Shown piece by piece: positions 1 to 8,047 of a DNA stretch of 47,270 nucleotides (position 1 is the first letter of the stretch; each line of letters starts with the position of its first letter). Both the position numbers and the translations under genes were made by a program. Under the pieces are notes generated by a model. That model was not told where the DNA came from and did no database searches. It worked only from the letters and a program-made list of their open reading frames with translations. The stretch is from SAR86 cluster bacterium AG-422-E19 (lineage in GTDB: Bacteria > Pseudomonadota > Gammaproteobacteria > Magnimaribacterales > AG-339-G14), in contig QCMR01000005.1 of NCBI GenBank assembly GCA_003213595.1, positions 1 to 47,270 of the forward strand, in the 5' to 3' direction.

Positions 1-1019
1 GCATAACCCTGATCTATATATCCTGTTTTAACAAAGGCAGTAAAATCAGAACTCCCTCCTATCTCACTAGCATCAGCAAGTCTCTTCGGACCAGCTTTTT
101 TTGTTGTATCTTTGAAAGCATGCCAGCTTGAACCATGGTTTTCTGTTCCAGGATCCCAAGGAATTACATAAGCCAACATTCTCGCATAATCGTATTTTTG
201 ACAGAAAAATCTTTTGTCCTCTGCAGTATTCATGTAAAAACGATAGCCAATTGCCCAAGGCCAACCAACTTGAGCTGGTCTAAATTTTTCAAAAACACCG
301 GTTGAAACATCTCCATTATTCGTAAGCTTTACATTGTATGTGGTCTGACCAGCATGGGCTAAATAATCAATTGTATTGTCATTTACAATGATTTTTCCCA
401 TCCCAGCCGTTGTGCCAATATCAATCCCTAAATCTTCCGACCAGGTTGTTAAATTATTCCAAGTGGACAATGGTTGATAGGCATATTCCAAAGTAAGTTT
501 TCCATACTTGGAACAAGGTATATTTTTAGCAACGAAGTATTCATTACAAGCAAATTGAGAAAAAGAAAAATCATAGAAGATTTTCTGAGGTAATTTTGCA
601 GGATTTGTGCTTCCTGGATAAGGGGAAGACCAAACTTTAGCTTTTACTGGACTAGTATTGGATTCTCTAGTTACTTGGAAAATTGCTTCGTTAAAAGTTA
701 TATCTTTGAAACTTATATCGGTATCTTCTTGCTCGGTACTTGCACTTTTTGCAACATAGCCTTCGCTTTTTTGTTGAGAAAGAATCGGGGAATATCTATT
801 TATACATAAGTCTTCACTTGTAAGTACTCTGTAAGCTTTTTCATTAAGAAGACCCGCTCGACTGATTCCAGCTCCGATAAAGCAGGTGTAAAGATTTATT
901 GCTTGTAATGAGTCATTTAGCTCATTTCCTTGTACATAAAAATCAGAAATATCATTGGCATAATCTGTTGCACTTAAAATTGAACAGTATAAAAAGAAAA
1001 TAAATATAAGTTTTTTCAT
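1..1019 (-). CDS. Large secreted Cys-containing protein, module A (3' end cut by window edge)
   Basis: An open frame runs from an ATG at 1019 off the left edge: 339 codons are visible and the C-terminus is missing. The start follows a Shine-Dalgarno-like AGAGGT and lies 8 bases after the small lipoprotein gene. The N-terminus is a signal peptide (MKKLIFIFFLYCSILSA). An N-terminal domain follows with C46 and C72 (C-x25-C). It aligns with the paralogues further right: DISDFYVQGN here, EQDFFVSGN in module B and IVDFYVPS in module C. Unlike them it has no Gly/Ser linker after the second Cys. More Cys residues follow in a Trp/Tyr-rich, probably beta-rich region. I recognise no known domain. It is inferred to be periplasmic or surface-exposed; its function is unknown. 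Confidence 0.85.
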   Translation of the reverse strand, partial: MKKLIFIFFLYCSILSATDYANDISDFYVQGNELNDSLQAINLYTCFIGAGISRAGLLNEKAYRVLTSEDLCINRYSPILSQQKSEGYVAKSASTEQEDTDISFKDITFNEAIFQVTRESNTSPVKAKVWSSPYPGSTNPAKLPQKIFYDFSFSQFACNEYFVAKNIPCSKYGKLTLEYAYQPLSTWNNLTTWSEDLGIDIGTTAGMGKIIVNDNTIDYLAHAGQTTYNVKLTNNGDVSTGVFEKFRPAQVGWPWAIGYRFYMNTAEDKRFFCQKYDYARMLAYVIPWDPGTENHGSSWHAFKDTTKKAGPKRLADASEIGGSSDFTAFVKTGYIDQGY

Positions 1020-1027
1020 CTTTACCT

Positions 1028-1183
1028 CTAATCTAAATCTATGGGTTCTATTGCACTTATATCTCCCTGCATACCTGTAATGGCCGGAGCAGATGTAGAT
1101 GAAGAATTTGAATTAACAGATGATCCTCCTCCCCCACCACAGCTGATAAAAATAAAACTTATTAATATTAATGTAATTTTCAT
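1028..1183 (-). CDS. Small Gly/Ser-rich lipoprotein, module A
   Basis: This 51-residue gene has ATG at 1183 and TAG at 1028. A GGGAG ribosome site lies 6 bases before the start and a promoter-like pair further up. The N-terminus is a short lipoprotein signal (MKITLILISFIFISC) with the Cys directly followed by GGGGGSS. The mature part is about 37 residues, first Gly/Ser/Asn-rich and then ending in an acidic tail (IEPIDLD). The lipobox FISC is weak at the -3 position, but the same design recurs in modules B and C, which argues for a real gene. It directly precedes the large secreted gene. Inferred role: a membrane-anchored peptide partner of that protein. Function unknown. Confidence 0.75.
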   Translation of the reverse strand: MKITLILISFIFISCGGGGGSSVNSNSSSTSAPAITGMQGDISAIEPIDLD

Positions 1184-1207
1184 AGAGTACTCCCAAAGTA
1201 TTCTTAG

Positions 1208-1236
1208 ACTATATGTATATCTGAGTTAAATAACAA
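1208..1236 (-). promoter_or_regulatory. Sigma70-like promoter of module A
   Basis: On the minus strand TTGTTA (1236-1231) and TATAGT (1213-1208) are separated by exactly 17 bases. They match the -35 and -10 consensus at 4/6 and 5/6 positions. Transcription would begin near 1201, about 18 bases before the lipoprotein ATG at 1183, and just after the terminator of module B. Found by eye only. Confidence 0.5.
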
Positions 1237-1243
1237 TGAAAAT

Positions 1244-1271
1244 AAAAAAGCCTTCCGAAGAAGGCTTTTTT
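1244..1271 (-). terminator. Intrinsic terminator after module B
   Basis: Read on the minus strand this is a perfect 6-bp stem GCCTTC/GAAGGC closed by a TTCG loop, the very stable C(UUCG)G tetraloop, followed by TTTTTTATTTT. It starts 14 bases past the stop of the 1083-residue gene. It separates modules B and A, so A needs its own promoter. Confidence 0.9.
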
Positions 1272-1285
1272 AAGCTTACGTTATT

Positions 1286-4200
1286 TTAATTTGCTGTTGG
1301 CAGAGTAGCTAATTGCTCAGTAGTTTCTTTAACCTTACCCATAATGACTGATGGATCACCATTGTTTCTGAGTAAAGTAGGAACTGTACCGATTTTATTG
1401 ACTTCAGTTCCATTTGGACCCATGTCAGTAAGCTTTGTAGCTTCAGCAATAGGATTAGCTGTTTGTATCGCAGCATAGTCTCTTGTCCCTGCGACAACTT
1501 TTGTTGCTAAAAATTGATCTCCATTTAATCTTTTCGCATATAAAGTAACCGGACTTCCTGATGAATTATCAGTCAACTGAGATCCATCTGGAATGGTGAA
1601 TTTTGATACCCAACGGTAACAATCGCTCCAACTACCATTGATGTAATCTCCCTCGTAAAGGCCAGTACAGGTATTAAAGAATCCTCCAGGAATATTCCAA
1701 AGACTACCAAAGCCCTCAAACTGAAGTTGGTAAGTTTTTTCAGCAATCTCCAAGTTTCCTTTAGCGGCTGAAACCCCTGCAGCAGTCTGTTGAGCTGCAG
1801 TCCATTGAGTAGCATCCAATTCAAGTCTTTTTGGTTGCTGAATAGCTACTTTATTTCCACTTTCAGATAACTGATAAACACCCTCAGTCATGATTCCAAT
1901 TTCAAAATATGTAGTAACATCCCCACCCCAAATTTTTTCATTGCAGAATCTATCTTCAGCCATTTTAGCGCCATTCCCTAAATACCTTGGATGATCAACG
2001 TCATACAAAAGATATTGAGTTCCCAACTCATTTTCAGGGCATTCAAAGGTATGAATAGGAACTATATCGTCACCCGGTTTTCTTGCAGGAACTAAAAAGC
2101 CAGTTCTTGCAGACCAACTTACATATTCCAAGCTATAAGGATTTGCAGCTGTCCAGTCTGGGCGTTTGACTTGCATACCATAAAGTTTCCAAGTTACAGG
2201 TTCTTTGAGAGATGCCGTGGCGGCTGTCATTGCAGATGTATTGGCATCGGAAACTGTCATTTCATTAGCACTAGCAGCTGCTTGGTAATAAATTTTCCCT
2301 GAATCTATAATGTAGTCAGTAACATCTGATCGAGCTAAACCATCCAATTCTCCAAAAGACTCTCCCGCTCCATCATCAAAATCCCAAAACAAATGATTGG
2401 TATCCCAAATGGAATCGTATTGCACTTGATACAGATCATCATTATTTGGATCATTATCCGAAACTCTAGTTACAGCATCACTCAGTCTTGTGTTATATAA
2501 ATCTGGTTTCAAACATAAATTTATGCAAGCAAGTCTATCTGCTGGATCTGTGGTATTTGTATCGCCATCAATATCCACTGTAGCAAGATAGGTCTCTAAG
2601 TCAGCAACAGAAATTCTGTCAATTTGTTCGTTCTTAATTCCTATTCCAGCGGCTACAGAAGTATGATTTGCTGTTACAAATGCCTCTCCAGGAATTTGGA
2701 AATAAGTCCAAATATCAGGAGACCAAGCACCTAATTGTTCAATATAACCAGGCTGAATTTGCATTGCTCCTGCATAAACTGAACCATCAATAACAATCGG
2801 AGATGAAAGTTGTACTTCTGGGTCACCATTTTTTGCCCATTTCATACCGTGCGTAAGGGTAAGAGCCCCTTCGTTTCCAGTTCCACCATCTTTATCCCAA
2901 TAGCCTATGTAACTGTAAAAACAATTTTCATTATTTGCATCATCGTAATGAGACCAATCACACGCAACTCCGCCATTAGCTGCAGTTGAATTTGTTAGTG
3001 TTGCCCAAGCAGCTTTTGCTGAAGTCTCCCATGGCTCACTTATATCTAATTTTATTTTATGAATACTGTCTAAATTTCTATAAGAAGTAGAAAATTTAGT
3101 GATTTCTAAATAGTTTTTTGATAGGTCGCATTCAGTAGTAGAACATTTAAAATCTCCTCCTGACTGACCATCATCTCTTTTCCATTTTCTAGTGGTAGGA
3201 TCGATTCCTGCCTCTTGAGCATAATAATCTACCCAAACTCCCCAGTAATCTGCCCAGCCGAATAAATCGTCTCCTGTCAAACTATCCGATCTAATAGGAA
3301 AGCTTCCAGCACTTTCTCCATGCCTTGTGCCGTCGGCATTGTAAATTCCATAACGAAAGACATTGGTAAACGCATTTGCCTTATCGGTGTCGTAGCAAAC
3401 TTCTGCAGTTGAAATACCTGTATCTGCTAAGTTTATAGTTGCTCCCTGTAAAGATGTACCTTCTGTAGCTCCCTTAGCATTTGGATCTGCAAAGTCGTAA
3501 AAGCCACCTATCATATCTGCAAATGATGATTGTTCGGCTGAAATAGCTTTTTCACAATAATAATTACCAGAATTACTTACTTCAAAGGCATAAAATACTT
3601 TTACTTCTCCCATTTGTGTAGTGTTTTCACCACTCATCATCCAGGTATCGTCCCAAGTTTCCGTAGAATAAATACCAGTTGCTCCATCTGCTGAAAACGT
3701 AATGGTAATTTCCTGAGAACCCATAATGCTTTCTCTAAAAGTTATGGTTTGACCATTGGCTTCTAGGAAGCCATTACCAAGACTGAAGTTTTGAAGTTCC
3801 ATTTTCTCTTTTTGCGATCTTCCAAAATCATCAACTTCGATTAAAGAATCAGTCCCCGCAATATCTAGTGGAACACCAGCAGCCATTCCCATAAATGAAT
3901 CGGCTACAGCTTTAGCATCTGCATACATCGTGTAATTCATTTTGAAGTCACCAAACTTAGAAGTCCCACTTGCACTGGCCGTTTGTTCGTATTTCAAATA
4001 AACCGTGGCATCAAAAGGCATATCATCTCCACTCCCACCTTGGGCTCCTCCCATGGTGTCGGCAGCAATACCAATTGCTGCTGGACCGTCTCCAGCTCCA
4101 GATCCTTGTAGTTGAATCCATACACTACCAAACATTGGTGAAGAGCCATCAGCTTGAGTCACTTTTACATATGCAGTATTCCCTTCTTTAATATTTTGTG

Positions 4201-4537
4201 CTGAACTACCTCCACTGTTTGAGTTACCACCTCCACTGCTTCCACCTTTTGCTTGAGAAGCTTTTTGTTGGTCGTCTCCAGAGGCCTTACCAAAGGAGCA
4301 ATCATCTTCAAAGATCGTTGCTACGTATGTTTCTTTATTTACGAATTCAGCAGGTTTGGTGTTTGCCAAGTAACAAAGTAACAAATTAACTCTTTCTAAA
4401 GACTCATTGACTCTATTACCAGAGACAAAAAAATCTTGTTCATCAGTAGTATAAGCACCCGAAGTTGGTACTTGAGTCAAAGATAATTGCGTAAAAAATA
4501 TTGTTGAACTAAATACAAATAATTTAAAAAGTTTCAT
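1286..4537 (-). CDS. Large secreted Cys-containing protein, module B (1083 aa)
   Basis: The gene has ATG at 4537 with an AGGAG ribosome site, 10 bases after the module B lipoprotein stop. The signal peptide is about residues 1-22. The N-terminal domain carries C55 and C80 (C-x24-C). A Gly/Ser/Asn linker spans about 98-113. Segments shared with the module C protein include FGDFKMN (195-201), YYCEKAISA (327-335), YGIYNADG (396-403) and ADYWGVWVD (429-437). They also include a C-x3-C pair in ACINLCLKP, and the C-terminal block FEGFG (940-944), NGSWSDC (about 967-973), RLNGDQF and PSVIMG near the end. No enzyme motif, autotransporter barrel, Ca-binding repeat or known sorting signal is visible. 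It is a paralogue of the flanking large genes. Secretion is well supported; function is unknown. Confidence 0.92.
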   Translation of the reverse strand: MKLFKLFVFSSTIFFTQLSLTQVPTSGAYTTDEQDFFVSGNRVNESLERVNLLLCYLANTKPAEFVNKETYVATIFEDDCSFGKASGDDQQKASQAKGGSSGGGNSNSGGSSAQNIKEGNTAYVKVTQADGSSPMFGSVWIQLQGSGAGDGPAAIGIAADTMGGAQGGSGDDMPFDATVYLKYEQTASASGTSKFGDFKMNYTMYADAKAVADSFMGMAAGVPLDIAGTDSLIEVDDFGRSQKEKMELQNFSLGNGFLEANGQTITFRESIMGSQEITITFSADGATGIYSTETWDDTWMMSGENTTQMGEVKVFYAFEVSNSGNYYCEKAISAEQSSFADMIGGFYDFADPNAKGATEGTSLQGATINLADTGISTAEVCYDTDKANAFTNVFRYGIYNADGTRHGESAGSFPIRSDSLTGDDLFGWADYWGVWVDYYAQEAGIDPTTRKWKRDDGQSGGDFKCSTTECDLSKNYLEITKFSTSYRNLDSIHKIKLDISEPWETSAKAAWATLTNSTAANGGVACDWSHYDDANNENCFYSYIGYWDKDGGTGNEGALTLTHGMKWAKNGDPEVQLSSPIVIDGSVYAGAMQIQPGYIEQLGAWSPDIWTYFQIPGEAFVTANHTSVAAGIGIKNEQIDRISVADLETYLATVDIDGDTNTTDPADRLACINLCLKPDLYNTRLSDAVTRVSDNDPNNDDLYQVQYDSIWDTNHLFWDFDDGAGESFGELDGLARSDVTDYIIDSGKIYYQAAASANEMTVSDANTSAMTAATASLKEPVTWKLYGMQVKRPDWTAANPYSLEYVSWSARTGFLVPARKPGDDIVPIHTFECPENELGTQYLLYDVDHPRYLGNGAKMAEDRFCNEKIWGGDVTTYFEIGIMTEGVYQLSESGNKVAIQQPKRLELDATQWTAAQQTAAGVSAAKGNLEIAEKTYQLQFEGFGSLWNIPGGFFNTCTGLYEGDYINGSWSDCYRWVSKFTIPDGSQLTDNSSGSPVTLYAKRLNGDQFLATKVVAGTRDYAAIQTANPIAEATKLTDMGPNGTEVNKIGTVPTLLRNNGDPSVIMGKVKETTEQLATLPTAN

Positions 4538-4547
4538 AATTATTCTC

Positions 4548-4712
4548 CTAATCTACTGCCTGAATCTTTTCTTGTACTTGATAGCCTTGTGCAGCTCCTC
4601 CAGACCCAGAAGATCCTGCAGACCCTGATGCAGCTGACGAAGAAGAACCCCCGCCTCCTCCACAAGCAAATATAAAAAATAAAATTGGTACTAATAATAA
4701 TGATCTAGACAT
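4548..4712 (-). CDS. Small Gly/Ser-rich lipoprotein, module B
   Basis: This 54-residue gene has ATG at 4712 and TAG at 4548, with AAGGAGAG 7 bases before the start. The N-terminus MSRSLLLVPILFFIFAC is a lipoprotein signal (lipobox IFAC, small residue at -1). The Cys is followed by GGGGGSSSS and a Gly/Ser/Ala run, then a short tail QGYQVQEKIQAVD. The mature peptide is about 38 residues, too small for an enzyme. Its stop lies 10 bases before the start of the 1083-residue secreted gene, so the two are almost certainly co-transcribed. The design matches the lipoproteins of modules A and C. Function unknown; it may anchor or chaperone the partner. Confidence 0.8.
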   Translation of the reverse strand: MSRSLLLVPILFFIFACGGGGGSSSSAASGSAGSSGSGGAAQGYQVQEKIQAVD

Positions 4713-4759
4713 TTGTTCTCTCCTTAAGTAATCCTTAAATTAAAAAATATTTCTTTATA

Positions 4760-4788
4760 AAAATACTCCTTTTTAAAAAAAAACTCAA
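4760..4788 (-). promoter_or_regulatory. Possible promoter of module B
   Basis: On the minus strand TTGAGT (4788-4783) and TATTTT (4765-4760) lie 17 bases apart, each 4/6 to consensus. A TATAAA at 4759-4754 is an alternative -10 but has no well-placed -35. The pair lies between the module C terminator and the module B lipoprotein gene, where a promoter is needed. Confidence 0.35.
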
Positions 4789-4797
4789 TTAAGAAAT

Positions 4798-4830
4798 AAA
4801 AAAACCCTTGTTAAAAACAAGGGTTTTTTT
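4798..4830 (-). terminator. Intrinsic terminator after module C
   Basis: An 8-bp stem CCCTTGTT/AACAAGGG (4805-4812 with 4816-4823) has a 3-base loop. A-T pairs extend it, and on the minus strand seven T follow. It begins about 16 bases past the stop of the module C large gene. The symmetric A/T flanks could let it work in both directions, but only the minus strand carries genes here. Confidence 0.9.
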
Positions 4831-4845
4831 GCCAGTAAATAATAT

Positions 4846-7800
4846 CTATGGAGCTACTATAGTCTCGCCGTGAATAACTGAAGGCTTGCCATCATTTAAT
4901 ATTGTTGTCGGCTGCGCACCAATAAAATTAGTTGCAGATGGATTTGCTAGATCAATGAGCACACTATCAACAGGTATATTTGCTGCTGTACTGGTATAGG
5001 TTCTAGCAGCCAAAGCATTTCTTTCGCTATCAGTAAGAATTTTTAAATACTCATCACCGCGTAGCTGCCTAATTTTTATGTCATTTCCTGGATTAGAGAC
5101 ATTTGTCAGAGTAGTTCCGTCTGCAAGAGAAAACTCATGAACGTATCTCAAACAATCACTCCATGCACCATTATGATATCTACCTAAAATAGTATTTTCA
5201 CAATGATTGTAAACTTTACCCGGGAAATTATGTAAAGCACCAAAACCTTCAAATTTGAGTTTTACTTTTCTGCCAGTGTAATCTGTTTTATCAGTCCCGG
5301 TGAAGTTGTAGGTTGCTTTGGTGTCATTGATTTCAACCTCAAATGTTTCAGGCGCCATAATGTTAGCAAATTGATTCCTAGTTTCATTATAGACTTTATA
5401 TCTAGGTCTTTGCACAACATTAATTTCATAAGAATCCACCTCTCCTCTGTGAAGTTTATCTAGACAGTAGTAGGTAGTTGCCGCTTGCAATAATGAGGTA
5501 TTTTGAGAAGCGAAAGACTTAATTCTTGGAGTGTAACCTCTGGCATCTGAACCTTCTGTTGCACATGCAAGATTACTGAGATCTGTAGAATCGATTAATT
5601 CCATGTGATAAGCCCAACCAAACCTTTGCGAATGGTTTGATCTTAAAACATTATATGTAAGGCCAACATTCTGCCCTGTTCCCATGGCATTGTCTTTTTC
5701 CCAATATTCATACTTATCAAGTTTATTTTCATAATTACCAGAATCTATTTTTTGTTGATTAGCGGTTGTCCAGTCAAGTGCTTGACTTGCAGTAGAATCT
5801 GTAATGACTCCTGACGCGCCATCCACTGTATATACTCTCGTTTCAACTGTTCCACCAATCCAATGCCAATCTCCTGCATACATACGAAAATCACCTGAGT
5901 CATCATCATCGTAAGAATCTTGACTTGTACTTCCGGAAGCATCGTAATAAGCATCTACTTTAAGATAAGGACCAATACTGTAATAGGGAGTTACATTCAA
6001 TGGCCCAGCCGGTACGGTAGGATCAGTTGCATCGTAAGCAGTAAAAGCGGATGCTAGCGCTGTATTCATAAGAGGCTCTGAGAGACATCTTTCTAAGCAC
6101 GTAAGATTTGTAGGTAAATCTGTAGCAGCAATTTTGGTTCTAGTTCTTTGTTTTACGGCATTTGCATTAGAATCCGAAGTAGGATTTTGAAAAGAGGTAT
6201 ATCTAATATTGTATCCTTGGTTTGCGTCTGGATCCCAGAAATGCATGCCTCTATTCCAGCCAGAGCCATCAGTCATATTTGTAACCCAATTTGCAGCTGT
6301 AAATACAATAGGAGTAGCTAAAGTAACATGTACTGGCGGATTTTGTCTCCAGTCCATTCCTTCAGTTAAAGTAAAAGTAACTGTCCCGCCACTCGCAGTA
6401 ATTTTTCCTGTGTATTCTGGACAATTTCCATCTGTAGCATTACAAGCACCTGTAATAGGCACATTCAAAGCATTTAATTGATTCGCCCAATTAGTTGAAC
6501 CAGAAGTATCGTCTTTGTAATGTTGTGTATACCACTGAATACTTGTTCCAGCCAAAGATGTTAGAGTTTTACTATTCGTAGATTTTAGCCAAATCTCGTA
6601 ATAATCTTTTTTCAGAGAATATTCATCGTTATCATTATTATCTCTTTCGTTCACAAATAAAGTAGTGTCAGTGACAAAGCCTCTGTCTCTTTGGTCTACG
6701 TGGGTTCCCCAATAACTCGCATATGCATATGCTGAACTATTTGTACTTGGATTAACTTCTTTGGATTTTAAAGACATTGCATTTACTGCTGAAGAACTTG
6801 CTCCTGAATATCTATCACCTGCAGAAGTATAAGTTCCATACTCATATACAATTCTTTTGGCATCGCTAGCTTTGGTGCTCCAACATTCTTCCCCAGTAAC
6901 TGTTTGGGCAGACCCTCCATCGAGCTCAAGATAAGCTGAGGGTGGAGTTGTCAATGCTCCCGAAATCGCAGTTGCAAATTGCGAGGAGCTTAAAGCTGCC
7001 CCGTCGTTTTGAAATATTCCAGGACCTGCTGGAGTAACCTTTTGGGCTGAAACAAATTCTTGACAGTAGATACCAGTAGTTTTGTTAAGAAAAATCTTAT
7101 GACTTAACTGATATGTTTCAGAATCTCCTCCACCAAAAGGAAAATAAGTTCCAACAGAAACCATATAACCATGTTGGGCATCATCATTTGATAAGTCAGC
7201 ATAAAGAGATCTAGATGGCTCCATTGCACCACTTTGTTTGTATTCTATCGTCTTACCAAGTGTTTTGAGATAACCTTTCTCCAATTGGGTTCCATCTGGA
7301 ACAGGATCTATTGGAAATCCAGGGATGCTTTGTTCTTTCGCATCAGTTCTGGATTCTGCAACAACTTCGAAATTCATCGTGAAATCTCCAAAGGGACTAT
7401 CGGTATCAGGATCTTTAGAAAGCACTGTTTTTACATATGCCTTAGCTTTGAGTCCCTCCATCAGAAGCTCAACCCAACCCTTACCTTCGATTGTATTTCC
7501 AACGATAACATTTTCATAAACTCCAGGTGTATAAACAACATTATCTACTTCGTTGGTTTGAGCAGTTCCACCACTACTAGCACTTGAACCCGTGGCTGCA
7601 GCTGAATCTGATGCAGCATCGGCTCCATCAGCTTTTTCACAGGATTTTTCATCTACCAAAGCTCTATAAGCTGATTTATCAATAAAGTCTTTAAAATTTG
7701 TTTTAGCAACGAAACATAGAAGAAAATTTGGCATTTCCATTGCATCGTTAGCTAAGATGCTTGGAACATAAAAATCAACTATGTTTGCATCATCTTCATA

Positions 7801-7866
7801 AGCAGCGGTATAAACAAAACCCCCAAAAAATAGAGGCAGCATTAAAAATATTTTTTTAAAATTCAT
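4846..7866 (-). CDS. Large secreted Cys-containing protein, module C (1006 aa)
   Basis: I place the start at ATG 7866, behind AAAGGAG. A longer frame begins at 7905, but it overlaps the upstream lipoprotein stop and puts 13 residues before the signal peptide. MNFKKIFLMLPLFFGGFVYTAA is a clear signal peptide. The N-terminal domain has C51 and C76 (C-x24-C), followed by an Ala/Ser/Gly linker (about 84-103). Shared with the module B protein are FGDFTMN, IYCQEFVSA, ASYWGTHVD, LTCLERCLSEP and the C-terminal block FEGFG (872-876), NGAWSDC and RGDEYL. A terminal KPSVIHGE parallels DPSVIMGK in B. Overall identity is low, so the duplication is old. No known family recognised; secreted, function unknown. 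Confidence 0.92.
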   Translation of the reverse strand: MNFKKIFLMLPLFFGGFVYTAAYEDDANIVDFYVPSILANDAMEMPNFLLCFVAKTNFKDFIDKSAYRALVDEKSCEKADGADAASDSAAATGSSASSGGTAQTNEVDNVVYTPGVYENVIVGNTIEGKGWVELLMEGLKAKAYVKTVLSKDPDTDSPFGDFTMNFEVVAESRTDAKEQSIPGFPIDPVPDGTQLEKGYLKTLGKTIEYKQSGAMEPSRSLYADLSNDDAQHGYMVSVGTYFPFGGGDSETYQLSHKIFLNKTTGIYCQEFVSAQKVTPAGPGIFQNDGAALSSSQFATAISGALTTPPSAYLELDGGSAQTVTGEECWSTKASDAKRIVYEYGTYTSAGDRYSGASSSAVNAMSLKSKEVNPSTNSSAYAYASYWGTHVDQRDRGFVTDTTLFVNERDNNDNDEYSLKKDYYEIWLKSTNSKTLTSLAGTSIQWYTQHYKDDTSGSTNWANQLNALNVPITGACNATDGNCPEYTGKITASGGTVTFTLTEGMDWRQNPPVHVTLATPIVFTAANWVTNMTDGSGWNRGMHFWDPDANQGYNIRYTSFQNPTSDSNANAVKQRTRTKIAATDLPTNLTCLERCLSEPLMNTALASAFTAYDATDPTVPAGPLNVTPYYSIGPYLKVDAYYDASGSTSQDSYDDDDSGDFRMYAGDWHWIGGTVETRVYTVDGASGVITDSTASQALDWTTANQQKIDSGNYENKLDKYEYWEKDNAMGTGQNVGLTYNVLRSNHSQRFGWAYHMELIDSTDLSNLACATEGSDARGYTPRIKSFASQNTSLLQAATTYYCLDKLHRGEVDSYEINVVQRPRYKVYNETRNQFANIMAPETFEVEINDTKATYNFTGTDKTDYTGRKVKLKFEGFGALHNFPGKVYNHCENTILGRYHNGAWSDCLRYVHEFSLADGTTLTNVSNPGNDIKIRQLRGDEYLKILTDSERNALAARTYTSTAANIPVDSVLIDLANPSATNFIGAQPTTILNDGKPSVIHGETIVAP

Positions 7867-7888
7867 AATTTCTCCTTTAAAAACAATC

Positions 7889-8047
7889 TTAAGTTGTGCC
7901 AACAAGATCTACCTGACTTTTTAAGTTTCCAGTTGGGGCACTACCACTTCCTGAACCAGAACCCGAGGAACCTGCAGCTGCAGTTCCTCCACCACCACAA
8001 GAAACAATTAACAAAATAATAAATAAAAAAGCTGTTATTTTTTTCAT
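7889..8047 (-). CDS. Small Gly/Ser-rich lipoprotein, module C
   Basis: This 52-residue gene has ATG at 8047 and TAA at 7889, with GGAGAG 4 bases before the start. The N-terminus MKKITAFLFIILLIVSC is a lipoprotein signal (lipobox IVSC). The Cys is followed by GGGGTAAAG, a Gly/Ser repeat and the tail LKSQVDLVGTT. The mature peptide is about 36 residues. The gap to the start of the 1006-residue secreted gene is 22 bases. The other two modules have the same size, composition and place upstream of a large secreted paralogue. Function unknown. Confidence 0.8.
   Translation of the reverse strand: MKKITAFLFIILLIVSCGGGGTAAAGSSGSGSGSGSAPTGNLKSQVDLVGTT

Follow-up and report, generated by a model that had tools for sequence, protein, structure and literature searches.

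The window analysed here is a stretch of 47,270 nucleotides at the start of contig G000:C5 of the SAR86 genome G000 (1.11 Mb, 91% complete). At positions 1-8047 it carries three modules arranged head to tail on the minus strand, each made of a small lipoprotein gene followed by the gene of a large secreted protein. According to the ORF list, the lipoproteins of modules 1, 2 and 3 have 52, 54 and 51 aa and are encoded at 7889..8047, 4548..4712 and 1028..1183, respectively, while the large proteins have 1006, 1083 and at least 339 aa and are encoded at 4846..7866, 1286..4537 and 3..1019, after gaps of 22 bases in module 1, 10 in module 2 and 8 in module 3. The large gene of module 3 is partial, with its first 339 codons in view, because position 1 of the window is the end of the contig. 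The 1006 residues of large protein 1, which is also covered by the family alignment, are counted from an ATG; the open frame also includes a TTG 13 codons farther upstream. A two-gene design occurring three times, with these lengths and gaps of 8-22 bases, had been reported in a preliminary description of the locus, and it agrees with the ORF list.

Three parts can be told apart in each lipoprotein: the anchor, a linker of Gly/Ser and, at the C-terminus, a motif about 12 residues long. In module 1, the 52 residues counted from the ATG comprise a hydrophobic signal, a Cys, a Gly/Ser linker and a tail, which occupies the last 17 codons (7892..7942, minus strand); the tails of modules 2 and 3, placed by alignment, lie at 4551..4601 and 1031..1081 on the same strand. 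Signal peptides and lipoboxes were assigned by eye, and on this basis the large proteins of the window have a plain signal peptide with no lipobox Cys, the Cys being located in the separate small protein.

Directly 3' of large genes 1 and 2, the terminator scan and folding place terminator-like hairpins on the minus strand, each followed by a T-run (4798..4830, 15-pair stem; 1243..1272, 13-pair stem). Across the region, terminator-like sites are not above shuffles (5 vs 5.2), and promoter-like sites are fewer than in shuffles (14 vs 26.2). Among the SAR86 large genes with a checkable downstream stretch, a hairpin before a T-run follows 24 of 41, one of the 24 resembling the end of a tRNA gene; the module can therefore be described as a lipoprotein gene, a large gene and often a terminator. 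No tRNA gene and no Rfam family at the gathering score was found in the window.

The large-protein family

The 1083-aa protein matches copy 1 in both its C-terminal part (E 4.9e-24) and its N-terminal part (E 3.0e-14), and copy 3 with an E of 9.9e-9. The two complete copies share about 25% identity over their length, as expected from the earlier claim that the large proteins are related at low identity, and these comparisons indicate that the large proteins of the window are true paralogues. When 22 members were aligned, among them both complete proteins of the window, 25 columns proved invariant; eight of these are Cys (C51, C76, C268, C328, C590, C594, C768 and C801 in the numbering of large protein 1), while C482 of large protein 1 is nearly invariant.

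The preliminary description had also recognised no domain in these proteins, and the searches bear this out. Indeed, neither the window proteins nor the large relatives that were scanned have a Pfam or NCBIfam match above the cut-off, and the best match of the large proteins in the PDB by sequence profile has an E of 0.29. PADLOC, a collection of described anti-phage defence proteins, gave no match for five proteins, three of them from the window, and PHROGs gave a single match (E 0.09) that is not useful for the large proteins of the window. Weak matches to Fungus-induced (0.0033), lipo_LytA (0.0033) and invert_tail (0.005-0.09) involve low-complexity lipoproteins and were set aside. The AlphaFold model of large protein 1, based on an alignment of 11 rows, is of low confidence (pLDDT 47.5, pTM 0.35), and of the 289 Foldseek matches to this model none reached E<=0.001, the best E being 0.04.

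The family is present in 28 of 61 SAR86 genomes by single-protein search, including 12 of 16 in the genus of the window, and in 25 of 75 by profile. At class level, the SAR86 profile matches 15 of 275 genomes, 13 of them outside SAR86, and a profile of the outside members matches 23 of 370, 20 of them outside; taken together, the two profiles yield 22 family-positive genomes of the class outside SAR86. Part of the family-positive genomes have several paralogues. A scan of viral contigs gave 11 stretches, none of them a relative, and tblastn against plasmids with one fused relative as query gave no match. Open-licence papers on SAR86 lipoproteins, islands, secretion or split surface lipoproteins contained, among the matches listed, nothing on this locus, and a check of PMC11582366 for related terms was likewise negative. 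Judged by their sequences, the large proteins form one undescribed family.

Large, variable, exported proteins in repeated modules could also be the hallmark of polymorphic toxins or contact-dependent killing, a reading that we regard as very improbable given that variation spans the whole protein and that the C-terminus, rather than being a variable toxin domain, is conserved (G983, P986, V997 and G1000 are kept). Unlike polymorphic toxin systems, the window modules have no adjacent immunity gene, nor any further gene within them, the next gene after large 1 and large 2 being the next lipoprotein; moreover, no toxin-like family was matched in Pfam or NCBIfam.

Short paralogues of the family, 512-572 aa long and each with its own lipoprotein of 43-59 aa, were also observed (L031:3682-5403, L047:10736-12586); by eye, their Asp-rich C-terminal repeats resemble calcium-binding type-3 repeats. 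An alpha/beta-hydrolase gene, presumably haloalkane-dehalogenase-like, lies beside or near modules in three genera (L028:2327-3184, L031:11316-12182, L041:2976-3839, L047:8586-9449).

Fused and split anchors

A script located 75 family genes in 60 stretches. For SAR86, the pairing count covers 48 large genes whose 5' end is in view; their products have 966-1527 aa, except where the gene is truncated 3'. The count leaves aside four of the 75 genes, which encode short SAR86 paralogues or part of such a paralogue, as well as SAR86 fragments with the 5' end missing (G020:C6, G036:C10). Large genes with no small lipoprotein, which the preliminary description had proposed to look for, are the exception in SAR86, where 46 of 48 are paired: a complete lipoprotein lies directly upstream of 45, the lipoprotein of L081 is cut by the contig end, and the orthologous large genes of L034 and L037 have none within about 1 kb upstream. 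Outside SAR86 (23 family genes in 22 genomes) the expected pairing does not extend to 18 of the 23, in which a single chain comprises anchor, motif and large protein, so that a separate small gene is missing. A lipoprotein start is visible in 17 of these 18 fused genes, the remaining one being cut by the contig end. The split form accounts for five of the 23, including that of G307, with a gap of 222 bases to the first ATG, and one of the 23 is a 270-aa fragment.

The tail motif, which by eye reads loosely as hydrophobic-Pro-x-x-[Ile/Val]-x-x-[Val/Ile], recurs after the linker in the fused proteins, again by eye. The matrix used to score the tails came exclusively from fused proteins (16 motifs, after removal of two near-duplicates), and each tail was compared with shuffles of itself. 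At p<0.05 it recognised 16 of 33 SAR86 lipoproteins, module 3 of the window being among the tails assessed, and four of the five outside split ones; the other 17 of the 33 missed this level, including module 1 of the window (p 0.77), whose tail shows a related motif by eye. The 33, many of them near relatives, are made up of 31 lipoproteins from the 45 modules and two from short paralogues; of the other module lipoproteins, 11 contain inserted domains and three are plain, one of these being an exact copy, and these were left out. In addition, the profile of outside members spans the in-frame stop between lipoprotein and large protein in two modules of the SAR86 genome G016 (E 3.8e-19 and 6.0e-14). 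A quickly computed tree on 36 selected rows (SAR86, 17 of 48 genes; fused, 14 of 18; split, all five) places SAR86 on one side of a branch and intersperses the outside split forms with the fused ones, so that at least two changes are required. Collectively, these comparisons indicate that the small lipoprotein is the counterpart, encoded on its own, of the anchor in fused lipoprotein relatives, whichever of the two forms came first.

The anchors themselves vary. Some lipoproteins have a cupredoxin-like domain between anchor and tail (L044:3768-4292, L041:7324-7872, L047:4503-4988), for which the L044 anchor matches Copper-bind (0.079) and CBM_4_9 (0.0086), both below the Pfam cut-off, and some anchors carry an Ig/cadherin domain (Big_9, 3e-15). 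In three genomes, a Cys-Gly lipoprotein of 568-577 aa lies on the far side of the module locus (L028:487-2193, L029:256-1974, L030:2747-4480); its L028 copy contains HEYFH and, by eye, a cupredoxin-like C-terminal part, with no Pfam match above the cut-off. A further lipoprotein stretch with a DGY...D-N-N...D-E pattern, found by eye (L036:1843-4020, L075:2378-6074, L033:3581-5356), adjoins modules in two lineages and lies within the long anchor of another family.

The cupredoxin-like and Ig/cadherin domains of some anchors, together with the fact that some genomes hold several paralogues, would suit a role in nutrient or polymer capture, in which the large proteins would be surface receptors for glycans, proteins or metals and the alleles would follow diet and not predators. 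The large proteins themselves gave no domain match, no TonB receptor was recognised by eye beside the modules, and the replacement of alleles at one locus between sister genomes, described below, seems more than diet alone needs. We thus consider capture rather unlikely, less so than the other alternatives weighed here.

Co-inheritance and exchange of modules

In the 990 pairs formed by 45 modules, the more alike two large proteins are, the more alike are their tails (Mantel r 0.79); signal peptides show this trend less (r 0.30), and in both cases 0 of 2000 permutations were as high; the corresponding rank correlations are 0.39 and 0.02. In 32 pairs with 60-80% identity between large proteins, tails average 82% and signals 52%. 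Mean identities of tail, linker and signal are 69, 49 and 41% in a first orthologue group, 72, 63 and 43% in a second, and 54, 39 and 51% in a third. Linkage alone could give part of this co-inheritance, because tail and large gene are neighbours.

A natural chimera is present in G034. Its lipoprotein (174 aa) has an anchor and cupredoxin-like domain 87% identical to those of module b of G016, while its tail is identical to that of module a of G016 (16/16), and the large protein encoded next belongs to type a (89%) rather than type b (32%). The changeover in the DNA falls at L044 4239-4241, just before the first base of the tail at 4242. By these comparisons, the lipoprotein is a chimera of anchor and cargo broken at the junction of linker and tail. 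In the window, the tail of module 2 is 17/17 identical in G006 and G012 though its signal peptide is merely 25% identical in G012, and DNA similarity to G012 ends at 4604, the linker/tail junction of lipoprotein 2, three bases past the tail and into the linker. For lipoprotein 3, similarity ends inside the linker (1122..1127; G006 at 1122, G012 at 1127), and the anchor there is weakly alike. The break in the linker is weaker in the comparison of G000 with G006 than in those of G034 with G016 and G000 with G012.

It could be argued that the lipoprotein is a separate small envelope protein or a secretion helper and not a tether, with tail and large gene joined merely by adjacency. Within the lipoprotein gene it is indeed the tail, not the signal peptide, that lies nearer to the large gene, and the docking of a tether is proposed from sequence comparison. 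AlphaFold gave low-confidence models, including one of a read-through of tail and N-domain (pLDDT 36.6) in which the tail lies within a low-confidence helix, a result taken as neutral with regard to docking. However, in fused proteins the same motif still sits between the anchor and the large part, similarity breaks in the linker in the comparisons just described, and tails are better conserved than linker and signal in each of the three orthologue groups. A separate envelope protein or helper is thus unlikely, and a tether is preferred.

Replacement also affects whole alleles. Relative to the window, G001, the closest of eight genomes compared at clpA (dS 0.53), has a large protein 1 that is 40% identical, a large protein 2 that is 46% identical and a large protein 3 that is 27% identical over 38% of its length, whereas 29 other window genes have a match at 87-100% identity. 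Between G000 and G006, by comparison, dS is 0.70 at clpA, 0.074 in module 1 and 0.41 in module 2, and bins of 100 bases are 93-100% identical from about 4500 to 8000 vs 80-96% in clpA, while large protein 3 of G006 is 38-42% identical to that of the window. These values indicate that module 1 was recently exchanged between G000 and G006. The number of modules at the locus varies as well: G006 and G012 have three, G001, G010 and G005 have two, and G011 and G002 have one. We read this pattern as cassette exchange with divergent alleles maintained. Draft genomes may contain chimeric contigs; chimerism could mimic one breakpoint, hardly all of them.

Relaxed constraint or decay could in principle produce the low identity between copies, and dN/dS between divergent alleles is 0.22-0.38 with dS near saturation. 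In recent module pairs, by contrast, dN/dS is 0.07-0.14, so the alleles are kept functional; frames of about 1000 codons are open with no internal stops, and Cys and Gly residues are invariant. Decay in place of selection for variety is therefore highly unlikely. Selection for variety had been proposed in the preliminary description, and one part of that proposal is supported: between sister genomes, the genes of the modules stand out from the rest of the window, and modules change hands as whole units. For the associated roles in surface display, adhesion, polymer binding or defence, searches of the large proteins in Pfam, NCBIfam, PADLOC and PHROGs turned up no useful match.

Variation by recombination between genomes in a hypervariable large protein is also seen in the VARTIG modules of Thermococcales, archaeal Ig-domain proteins whose variation, according to PMC8416519, lies in the C-terminal domain. 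The window large proteins differ in that whole-protein alleles are replaced and in that the three proteins have no Pfam Ig match above the cut-off (best Ig_5, E 0.94). A variable, surface-related SAR86 locus has been described as well: according to PMC3569297, the SAR86 hypervariable region contains outer-membrane modification genes, glycosyltransferases and related enzymes, whereas the window holds protein cassettes. Pressure from phages or grazers is suggested by its authors for variable surface regions, and the varying alleles of the modules would fit such pressure.

Secretion route and surface display

In G000, T2SSK and T2SSL, the only two type II secretion system (T2SS) genes sought, match over the cut-off and adjoin each other at G000:C2:5608-6236. 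T2SSL is present in 21 of the 22 family-positive genomes outside SAR86 vs 7 of 13 others (Fisher p 0.006, kinship ignored), the 13 being the first negatives of at least 2 Mb in the profile-search listing and not a random draw. Within SAR86, T2SSL matched in five of eight genomes tried, four over the cut-off and G016 only below the family cut-off, with no match at E<=0.01 in the other three. T2SSK is found in 22 of 28 family-positive vs 17 of 33 family-negative SAR86 genomes (p 0.035) and had no match in six of the 28; it is a weak marker, because its profile also matches in 8 of 14 control genomes. T2SS is a plausible exit for the large protein. In G140 (L075:6502-15001), a split lipoprotein and its 513-aa partner directly follow a type II secretion operon, a gene row that we take to be gspF to gspN; one gene of the row was confirmed as T2SSL.

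Export of a surface lipoprotein by T2SS has a precedent in pullulanase PulA, as described in PMC7857515. What the SAR86 modules would share with this type is the lipid anchoring of a large exported protein, and G000 does have T2SS genes, but anchor and cargo are two genes in SAR86 and the exported protein has, by eye, no lipobox Cys of its own; no sequence relation between the window proteins and PulA-type lipoproteins was found. The Slam/T11SS surface lipoproteins covered in the same paper are likewise large, lipid-anchored surface proteins, a position that we infer for those of the window. A Slam/T11SS route was set aside for the modules, since PF04575 had no match in G000 (91% complete) and matched in one of eight SAR86 genomes.

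Our preferred reading, to which we assign a probability of roughly 0.6 from sequence evidence, is that the modules are cassettes for surface display: through the tail, an exported protein would be docked to a lipid anchor, and recombination diversifies the locus. Lipoproteins in which Gly at +2 follows the lipobox Cys are sorted to the outer membrane. In particular, the small lipoprotein would be lipidated at its Cys and sent to the outer membrane by the Gly at +2, its flexible Gly/Ser linker would present the short tail, and the tail would dock non-covalently on the large exported protein from the next gene, holding it at the cell surface. The large protein would probably cross the outer membrane via T2SS, and the tail probably takes over the position of a segment that belongs to the single chain of fused proteins; in relatives with both parts in one lipoprotein, it is the tail that remains attached to the large protein. 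Whole modules, or tail and large protein behind another anchor, would then be swapped among relatives, so that the surface is varied under the pressure of phages, grazers or targets.

More tentatively, and at a little below even odds, the tail may be a cognate address tag that plugs the large exported protein into interchangeable anchors, with recombination in the repetitive Gly/Ser linker making new combinations of anchor and cargo as well as new surface alleles in streamlined ocean bacteria. That these anchors would comprise plain, cupredoxin-bearing and Ig/cadherin-bearing forms is an equally tentative suggestion. So far as we could find in the literature, a modular display system of this kind has not been described.

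An unnamed family in which fused forms, split forms and a natural chimera all occur would allow a direct test of non-covalent lipid tethering. The same family bears on how a streamlined genome keeps a variable surface and, if surface exposure is true, the locus could mark phage or grazer pressure in metagenomes.
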